A stretch of 64,000 nucleotides of DNA from Salipiger sp. IMCC34102 (GTDB lineage: Bacteria > Pseudomonadota > Alphaproteobacteria > Rhodobacterales > Rhodobacteraceae). Both the position numbers and the translations under genes were made by a program. Below the pieces are notes generated by a model. The model was not told the origin of the DNA, ran no database searches, and saw nothing but the letters and a program-made list of their open reading frames with translations. Below, piece by piece: positions 18,731-22,993 of this stretch. Positions within the stretch are counted from its first letter, which is position 1, and each line of letters starts with the position of its first letter. The DNA lies in contig NZ_SELQ01000005.1 of the NCBI RefSeq assembly GCF_004145405.1, forward strand, positions 124,001 to 188,000. Reading direction: 5' to 3'.

Positions 18731-18784
18731 GCGCGCGCCCCCTTCCTTTGCCAGGCCGGGTCAGCGCTCTGCCCGTTCGCGCCC

Positions 18785-18807
18785 GAATTCGTTCACTGGA
18801 CGAATTC
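18785..18807. promoter_or_regulatory. Inverted repeat between aspS and carB, possible operator
   Basis: GAATTCG at 18785-18791 and CGAATTC at 18801-18807 are exact inverted arms separated by 9 bases. The 16-base centre spacing fits a dimeric regulator. It lies upstream of both candidate promoters. No known box was recognised. Confidence 0.4.
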
Positions 18808-18874
18808 CGGGGACGGCGCTCACCCCCCGCCGGAGGCATCGGCGCTCGGTCTGCCGAAAGCCGAAGACCAACCC

Positions 18875-18938: not shown

Positions 18939-22267
<3,329 letters not shown>

Positions 22268-22271
<4 letters not shown>

Positions 22272-22340
22272 TTTGCGATCCGGGCCGATGGCCCGGCAAT
22301 CCGTCCGGGGGACGGATTGCGCAAATCACGGGCGGAGCCC
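22268..22340. repeat. Hairpin repeat unit 1 (three-way junction)
   Basis: GTGATTTGC (22268-22276, containing the carB stop) pairs perfectly with GCAAATCAC (22321-22329). It encloses hairpin A (22280-22286/22290-22296) and hairpin B (22297-22306/22310-22319). Hairpin C follows at 22330-22340. Only this unit has the enclosing stem. Confidence 0.8.
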
Positions 22341-22361
22341 AGGGCCCAAGGCCATGCCTGT

Positions 22362-22418
22362 CCAGCGTAGCTGGCAAACGGTCCGGTGGACCGTTTGTGG
22401 CAATCACGGGCGGAGCCC
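22362..22418. repeat. Hairpin repeat unit 2
   Basis: Hairpin A is CCAGC gta GCTGG (22362-22374). Hairpin B is CAAACGGTCC ggt GGACCGTTTG (22375-22397), which differs from units 1 and 3 by two compensated base-pair changes. The conserved tail and hairpin C run to 22418. Confidence 0.8.
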
Positions 22419-22434
22419 TGAACTGATGCCCCGG

Positions 22435-22478
22435 CAATCCGTCCGGGGGACGGATTGAGCAAATCACGGGCGGAGCCC
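22435..22478. repeat. Hairpin repeat unit 3
   Basis: Hairpin B (22435-22444/22448-22457) is identical to that of unit 1, followed by the conserved tail ending at 22478. The upstream hairpin A is degenerate. Confidence 0.8.
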
Positions 22479-22499
22479 AGGACCGGAGGTATCGACGGA

Positions 22500-22559
22500 C
22501 CGGGCCGATGGCCCGGCGAAAGGTCCGGTCGACCTTTCTTGCCGATCACGGGCGGGGCC
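22500..22559. repeat. Hairpin repeat unit 4
   Basis: Hairpin A (22500-22516) is identical to unit 1. Hairpin B is GAAAGGTC/GACCTTTC (22518-22525/22531-22538), again a different but paired stem. The tail reads GATCACGGGCGGGGCC, the most diverged copy. Confidence 0.75.
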
Positions 22560-22583
22560 GCGGGTCAGCAAATTGCGGGTTCG

Positions 22584-22720
22584 TTCCAACGGCTTCGTCG
22601 CGCTTGGCGCGAATGCATTGAACCCTCGACGCGACCCAAGAGCACGCCCCCGCGCGGCCTGATTCACGGCCCCCCGCCAATCCGTGCTATGAAGGATCCA
22701 TGCAACCGAAAGGATCCGTC
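22584..22720. other. Remainder of the carB-lipoprotein gap
   Basis: Nothing beyond a possible weak -10 (TATGAA, 22688-22693) ahead of the lipoprotein gene is visible. Open frames here are short, GC-driven and have no ribosome sites. Confidence 0.4.
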
Positions 22721-22993
22721 ATGCTCAGACTACTTCCCCTCGCGCTCGCGGCGGCCTGCGCGGTCCCGACGCCTTACCAGCTTCCTCTGTTCGGCGGGGG
22801 GTATCGGGCCGAGGGCGACCAGTGCCGCAGGGTCGGCGAGGATGTCTATACCAACCAGTTCCTGGGCGATGCCTCGGACCTCGTCGCCTGCCCGGCGGGG
22901 ATGGAGAACCTCGGCGTCTTCGCGCTGGACACCGGCGGGCAGGAAGTCGCGCGCGTGCCGGGCTACGTGCTCTACTCGGTGCCCGTTCGCTGA
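22721..22993 (+). CDS. Small putative lipoprotein
   Basis: The protein has 90 residues. MLRLLPLALAAAC is a short lipoprotein signal with the acylated Cys at position 13, and the mature part carries three further cysteines/aromatics (DQCRRVGEDVYTNQF, DLVACPAG). I do not recognise the family. The ATG at 22721 follows aaaggatcc; another ATG at 22700 preceded by gaaggatcc would add seven residues, and the near-identical ribosome sites look like a small duplication. It is convergent with the GYF/DUF805 gene. Confidence 0.65.
   Translation: MLRLLPLALAAACAVPTPYQLPLFGGGYRAEGDQCRRVGEDVYTNQFLGDASDLVACPAGMENLGVFALDTGGQEVARVPGYVLYSVPVR

Follow-up and report, generated by a model that had tools for sequence, protein, structure and literature searches.

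GTAG and CGTC REPs have both been described, and the ends of GTAG REPs often supply a stop codon (PMC3733652); the same paper also reports that some TIRs of Y1 genes have the motif GGGGWSAS in common. In E. coli, TnpA-REP requires the GTAG tag together with an unpaired bulge in the stem (PMC8266576). The array of hairpin repeats that lies after carB in the 64-kb stretch of Salipiger sp. IMCC34102 DNA analyzed here (the window, whose position numbers are used below) is best read as a REP-like repeat in the broad sense that belongs to a new family, one defined by structure first. Short folded DNA repeats of this family occur across many Rhodobacteraceae, and they have apparently not yet been described: we did not recognize them in any published description in a search by titles and abstract openings in which subscription journals were thinly covered, and Rfam 15 has no match over the window element or in five other loci, in agreement with an earlier sequence-only reading of this DNA that could assign the array to no named family. 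A widespread repeat family is thus added to a major bacterial family; its fold defines it more than its sequence does, so sequence searches easily miss it.

Results

Four folded units after carB

The carB gene (carbamoyl-phosphate synthase large subunit; 18939–22271, + strand, from the ORF list, with Pfam CPSase_L domains and MGS) ends in a TGA stop codon (22269–22271) at which the first repeat unit starts. Unit 1 (22269–22340, + strand) is complete and scores 94.2 bits with covariance model R1 and 85.4 bits with R2 (described below), in both of which it is a training row. The carB TGA pairs with TCA at 22326–22328 in its outer stem (22269–22277/22320–22328, TGATTTGCG/CGCAAATCA), and this stem surrounds hairpin A (22280–22296, CCGGGCC-GAT-GGCCCGG) and hairpin B (22297–22319, CAATCCGTCC-GGG-GGACGGATTG), so that a three-way junction is predicted; a tail hairpin (22330–22340, GGGC-GGA-GCCC) follows. 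Immediately 5′ of the unit is a GGGG flank (22265–22268, + strand; the last carB codon is GGG) whose base 22268 is able, by its sequence, to pair with C 22329.

The other units lie on the same strand. Unit 2 (22355–22418, 56.5 bits with R1) has a reduced 5′ arm and contains hairpin A at 22362–22374 (loop GTA), hairpin B at 22375–22397 and the tail hairpin at 22408–22418. In unit 3 (22419–22478, 53.2 bits) the 5′ half is truncated and hairpin A is lost, and hairpin B (22435–22457) is the same as in unit 1 and is followed by the tail hairpin at 22468–22478. Unit 4 (22490–22560, 48.4 bits) has hairpin A at 22500–22516, hairpin B at 22518–22538 and a degenerate tail at 22550–22560. The whole array therefore spans 22269–22560 with four units. 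The sequence-only reading had seen four to five units between carB and a small lipoprotein gene; all the letters it quoted are present, and four of its units are real and the fifth is not. The tail that it called conserved, AATCACGGGCGGAGCCC, is exact in units 1–3 and degenerate (GATCACGGGCGGGGCCG) in unit 4. Its account of hairpin B is correct throughout: the arms are CAATCCGTCC/GGACGGATTG in units 1 and 3, CAAACGGTCC/GGACCGTTTG with compensated changes in unit 2, and a separate paired stem, GAAAGGTC/GACCTTTC, in unit 4. It missed the outer stem, the overlap with the carB TGA, hairpin A and a minus-strand copy at 18764–18822. The fold energy of the array is far below that of dinucleotide shuffles with both RNA (z −6.5) and DNA (z −7.8) parameters, and 0 of 100 shuffles equaled it in each case.

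The minus-strand copy (18764–18822; a GGGG flank followed by TGAGCGCC...GGGCGCGAACGGGCAGAGCGC) is degenerate, with an R2 score of 38.3 bits and an E-value of 5.1e-4 in the genome search. It lies before carB and before a divergent aspS-like gene (named by eye), and is not at the stop of any ORF of at least 80 codons. R2 has eight matches in the Salipiger sp. IMCC34102 genome: the four array units, this copy, a copy at another gene end (C19:612747) and two weak, unconfirmed matches. The array is absent at carB in eight congeners, where the model finds no match; the last carB codon is GGG in the window and GGC or GGT in these eight array-less congeners. No target duplication is demonstrable at the carB site, where the congener sequences are too diverged.

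Two observations concern the surroundings of the array. Several congeners (L014, L015, L016 and L018) have, by eye, a GC-rich, terminator-like hairpin shortly past the carB stop; no such hairpin is recognizable in the window (22561–22620 compared), where the array occupies that place. The small lipoprotein-like ORF after the array (22700–22993, + strand) has no Pfam match, and a similar small ORF beside carB is kept in several congeners (by eye).

A repeat family of the Rhodobacteraceae

Covariance model R1 was built from nine units and R2 from 70 units; the elements that they find are 52–85 nt long, mostly 55–79 nt. With R1 at E ≤ 0.001, the element is present in at least 55 of 198 Rhodobacteraceae genomes (up to 24 candidates were scored in each genome), so that the copies in relatives for which the sequence-only reading had proposed a search do exist. 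R2 matched nine genomes in a class draw of 385, four of them Rhodobacteraceae and five outside that family, the latter all weak (E 2.6e-5 to 1e-3). NCBI now places such Rhodobacteraceae organisms in Roseobacteraceae or Paracoccaceae. An exact search for the tail in GTDB genomes returned 22 stretches, of which 14 are from named Rhodobacteraceae-type organisms, each of these 14 with a significant R1 match. The other eight (Thermomicrobiales, two Chloroflexi, Sphingomonas, Tsukamurella, Streptomyces, Acidobacteriia and Halomarina) gave no R1 match better than E 0.02 and were used as controls for chance. The tail motif alone, with up to two mismatches, occurs 11 times in the window's genome, four times in the array and seven times without the fold (by eye).

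The unit set analyzed below contains 197 units in 140 loci, and 48 of these units come after another unit. The loci are the best model matches and not a random sample, and the counts of first units take in weak rows (E up to 1e-3).

Some copies have unusual settings. Three copies in one genome (L156, L157 and L158 in G195) have identical flanks, and the reading frame upstream of them, which we take to resemble OrfA of an IS3-family element, raises the idea that an insertion sequence may carry the repeat there. At two loci of another genome, G090 (L182 and L183), an additional inverted repeat, GCGCCCTCCC...GGGAGGGCGC, surrounds the element and suggests a larger composite palindrome. In the conjugative plasmids NZ_CP049814.1 (L186) and CP070881.2 (L187), a TTC-type element at 2325–2597 lies antisense inside a small gene that is annotated as DUF6330 in the former and as hypothetical in the latter; the frame is open through the element, which would contribute about 22 residues to the product. 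Similar matches are present in about 40 other plasmid records.

Stem covariation

Pairing is kept in these elements across many stem sequences. Double changes affect 23 of the 29 pairs in alignment A5 (70 units, 69 distinct), in 366 cells versus 110 in shuffles. They affect 27 of the 29 pairs in alignment A7 (104 units, 96 distinct), in 501 cells versus 160 in shuffles; A7 comes from 80 loci that were not used for R2, and none of its rows is identical to any A5 row. Covariation is 0.44 in A7, and slid partners give no more than 0.07 (A7) and 0.08 (A5), values to be read with the knowledge that both alignments were fitted to the model and so lean towards structure. When hairpin B was anchored on its loop instead of its pairing (17 of the 197 units have no anchor and were left out), its outer 7 bp were 93% Watson-Crick over 121 distinct stems. 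Stem sequences differ widely, yet the fold persists. The sequence-only reading had argued from the carB array that compensatory changes put the folded structure under selection; compensation recurs at loci outside model training, further copies were found, and stems decaying through unpaired changes were not. The kept pairing is thus observed, and we infer that selection, not hairpin-correcting mutation, maintains it (below).

Stop-codon anchoring and the G-rich flank

Occurrence at gene 3′ ends is common: in 77 of 149 first units (or of 146, if each site is counted once) the first base is that of the stop codon of an ORF with 80 or more codons, and the next most frequent offset has five units. 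The codon before these 77 stops is GGG in 57, GAG in eight, GTG in seven and another in five. Of 148 first units, 96 have an exact GGRG 5′ flank (as do 53 of the 77 stop-anchored ones) and 52, about a third, do not; a G-rich flank is also found where no such ORF stop is involved. Among TGA-starting units with 700 nt of upstream sequence available, 70 of 104 end such an ORF, versus 17 of 84 control GGRGTGA sites elsewhere in the same loci. Much of the stop anchoring could come from a G-rich TGA target if insertions that fall within genes are lost. We rejected the idea that the GGGG flank pairs with the final CCC, since these Cs are unchanged beside GGAG flanks (by eye).

Host genes that recur in at least four loci each are frr, dnaJ, sucC, carB and a response regulator (carB was named by Pfam, the others by eye, frr by its ending). 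Anchoring at the stops of housekeeping genes such as frr, carB, dnaJ and sucC makes effects on translation termination and on mRNA ends directly testable.

The frr gene serves as a natural experiment. It was found in 148 of 149 genomes, and its end was read in the best 130 of these 148 (30 loci and 100 stretches). Six of the 130 ends carry the element, and their last codon is GTG or GTT, with a last coding base of G in three and T in three; in the 124 element-free genes this base is C in 92, T in 17, G in eight and A in seven. G or T is thus the last base in 6/6 genes with the element versus 25/124 without it (p 1.2e-4, for a grouping chosen post hoc), and comparison of C with not-C gives p 4.6e-4; the cases are few and partly related, which limits these statistics. 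A last base of T goes with A past the stem and G goes mostly with C, which makes position −1 part of the fold, and among all first units without G at −1, 7 of 14 are compensated. The footprint of the element seems to reach into the last codon of the host gene. The frr elements of four genomes (G056, G079, G152 and G180) have TTGA...TCAAAGGGCG in common at one and the same site and keep their pairing with different stems, which suggests descent from one insertion.

A fold of DNA or of RNA

The ends of the outer stem in the 149 first units are TGA/GAA in 76, TGA/TCA in 29, TTC/GAA in six and TTG/CAA in five, and the TGA/GAA foot consists of a T-A pair followed by tandem G·A/A·G, which is a stable mismatch pair. 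Of 171 distinct units, 151 have a C-GNA-G tail loop, and each of the four bases is found at N (GGA 126, GAA 20, GCA 3 and GTA 2). Hairpin A, which has no perfect 4-bp stem in 72 of the 171 distinct units, has a GNA loop in 45 of 79 triloops (GCA 24, GAA 11, GTA 6 and GGA 4). This GNA rule holds on the sense strand; the complement loops read TNC. In DNA, GNA loops form unusually stable mini-hairpins with a sheared G·A pair (Yoshizawa et al. 1997, cited in PMC6479982).

These features bear on the idea that template-switch repair at replication perfects the stems by correcting both arms of an inverted repeat at once; selection for the fold would then be unnecessary, and the common tail and loops would reflect recent copying. 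Such repair would account for the scarcity of wobble or mismatch intermediates (80 of the 121 distinct B stems are perfect over the anchored 7 bp) and for arrays that look homogenized, as at frr in G056 and G152. However, arm correction alone is not expected to keep, in two different hairpins, GNA loops in which all four bases occur at N, to keep the TGA/GAA foot, or to pair position −1 by T-A, A-T and C-G besides G-C, as happens in half of the first units without G there, and we consider this explanation unlikely.

An RNA under selection should have many more G·U than A·C pairs, a difference not expected on DNA. With the TGA/GAA positions set aside, all helices together have 66 G·T versus 54 A·C beside 3,736 Watson-Crick cells (p 0.32). 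By helix, the numbers are 21 versus 12 in hairpin B, 17 versus 27 in the outer stem, 5 versus 6 in the tail and 23 versus 9 in hairpin A. The hairpin A excess (p 0.02; the closing pair accounts for 15 of the 23) is RNA-like and counts against a DNA reading; hairpin B anchored on its loop has 14 versus 13. As a small control, the 132 pairs of six tRNAs that ARAGORN called in these loci contain 6 G·T and 0 A·C; its seventh call was judged spurious and left out.

Could the element nevertheless be a 3′-UTR RNA, selected as a transcript structure that folds at the stop and acts by shielding the 3′ end, delaying termination or stalling ribosomes? The TGA stop lies inside a sense-strand stem, the same host genes (frr, dnaJ, sucC, carB and the response regulator) recur, hairpin A has its G·T excess, and E. 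coli REPs no more than 15 nt from a stop codon are reported to stall ribosomes (PMC5082802). We nonetheless hold this to be quite unlikely, since G·T and A·C are about equal overall, the loops obey the DNA GNA rule with few TTCG (2) and GCAA (2) loops among the tetraloops listed, some copies are antisense within an annotated gene or lie before genes, and Rfam has no match. The sequence-only reading had left DNA and carB 3′-UTR RNA side by side. The near equality of G·T and A·C, the C-GNA-G loops and the tandem G·A formed by TGA/GAA favor folded sense-strand DNA over RNA, and that the elements act as folded single-stranded DNA repeats is, in our judgment, rather probable; first units at stops are co-oriented with their gene by construction and are probably transcribed, a caveat to this reading. 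GNA loops together with equal G·T and A·C counts offer a general computational way to tell conserved hairpins that act as DNA from those that act as RNA.

Mobility and Y1/RAYT genes

The elements have formed tandem arrays, and units in one genome are often nearly identical (for example at L064 and L127, and at frr in G056 and G152). In one genome (G202), copies that hardly differ from one another occur in several contexts, and some of these copies lie at contig ends.

No mobilizing enzyme was found when Y1/RAYT genes were searched for with Pfam PF01797 and NCBIfam NF047646, and the window's genome has no match to either, so the Y1 REP-associated transposase raised in the sequence-only reading is missing there. 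NF047646 matches 140 of 394 Rhodobacteraceae genomes (114 above cut-off); PF01797 matches 18 of 198 and misses most Rhodobacteraceae RAYTs, and because of the NF047646 count PF01797 would mislead as a test for REP transposases. We searched 54 Y1/RAYT loci (30 RAYT, 16 further NF047646 and 8 PF01797 loci), which hold about 49 distinct genes, five repeats of one gene being included. The element is near one of the 54 (L188), about 580 bp off, and abuts none, and the RAYT gene at that locus has its own GTAG REP. The 16 NF047646 loci, weak and strong, contain no element (two loci with E 0.34 and 0.69 were left out), the eight PF01797 loci gave one insignificant match (E 0.51), and no autonomous transposon relative (the MITE criterion) was found among the Y1 loci. 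Of the 30 RAYT loci, 20 have, no more than 450 nt away, an 8-bp GTAG hairpin whose sequence is not that of the element. The GTAG REPs of these RAYT loci (L188–L217), such as GTAGGGTGGGC...GCCCACC, are close to Haemophilus REP sequences given in PMC2817692.

NF047646 is present in 31 of 55 element genomes versus 45 of 143 others (p 0.002), and in 21 of 55 versus 41 of 143 (p 0.23) if 14 genomes whose best match is weaker than 1e-20 are counted as negative; both tallies were made by hand and assume that all 198 genomes are within the 394. A classical REP family moved by Rhodobacteraceae RAYT transposases, which this weak co-occurrence, the frequency of NF047646 in the family and the element's likeness to GTAG REPs in its G-rich foot, its mismatched stem and its overlap with stop codons might recommend, is highly improbable, given an element that has no GTAG tag and is near only one of the 54 Y1/RAYT loci searched, a window whose genome has no RAYT, and RAYT loci that mostly have GTAG hairpins of their own.

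Discussion

How might such a repeat work? The sense strand of the upstream gene would fold into an outer stem around the 10-bp hairpin B, often with hairpin A, and then a tail hairpin. Copies would insert at G-rich, TGA-ended gene ends, where they are presumably harmless, and then multiply locally. The GNA loops, the tandem G·A foot and the G-rich tag might be read by a putative protein that binds or cuts folded single-stranded DNA, and such a recognizer would act as TnpA-REP does on E. coli REPs. Effects on the host would be those of a REP near a stop, on the mRNA end, translation termination and supercoiling. In its fullest form, which we offer tentatively and regard as rather unlikely, this model makes the element a self-spreading or mobile, structure-only DNA repeat on G-rich TGA stops whose folded sense strand is read by a putative non-Y1 enzyme and which reshapes the last codon of its host into pairing with the repeat.

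Each of the described repeat types resembles the element in part. CGTC REPs are likewise mainly alphaproteobacterial and have no dedicated transposase known (PMC3733652), but the same source gives them a CGTC tag, 4–5 nt loops and a mostly head-to-head dimer arrangement, whereas the element is flanked by G-rich sequence, has loops that are mostly of 3 nt and forms arrays in direct tandem. TIRYT TIRs can form clustered repeat families (PMC3733652), and 44 of 149 first flanks plus units fit their GGGGWSAS motif, although window unit 1 (GGGGTGAT) does not; they differ in that no Y1 gene flanked by the element was found in the loci searched, and the comparison with them was made on this motif. Br-REP1 and Br-REP2 of Bradyrhizobium are also alphaproteobacterial palindrome repeats in 3′ UTRs, but the consensus quoted for them is another one, and Br-REP1 is a palindrome of fixed sequence at about 200 sites (PMC5082802).

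The likeness to GTAG REPs and their RAYTs extends further. These too are short, mostly extragenic palindromes, single or clustered (PMC3733652, PMC8266576, PMC2817692), with an unpaired tag at the 5′ foot and, in E. coli REPs, a stem mismatch. However, the tag of the carB-type element is GGGG or GGAG, with T at position −3 in about 1% or fewer. In place of a single hairpin of 20–40 bp, the element is 52–85 nt long and has a tail hairpin besides an outer stem that holds one or two inner hairpins. Its stems are nearly free in sequence, the TGA stop begins with the element's own first base, and no RAYT abuts it in the loci searched. Because it thus departs from GTAG REPs in tag, in single-hairpin form and in RAYT association, we class it among REP-like repeats in the broad sense, as a family of repeated palindromes that are mostly extragenic and occur singly or in clusters.
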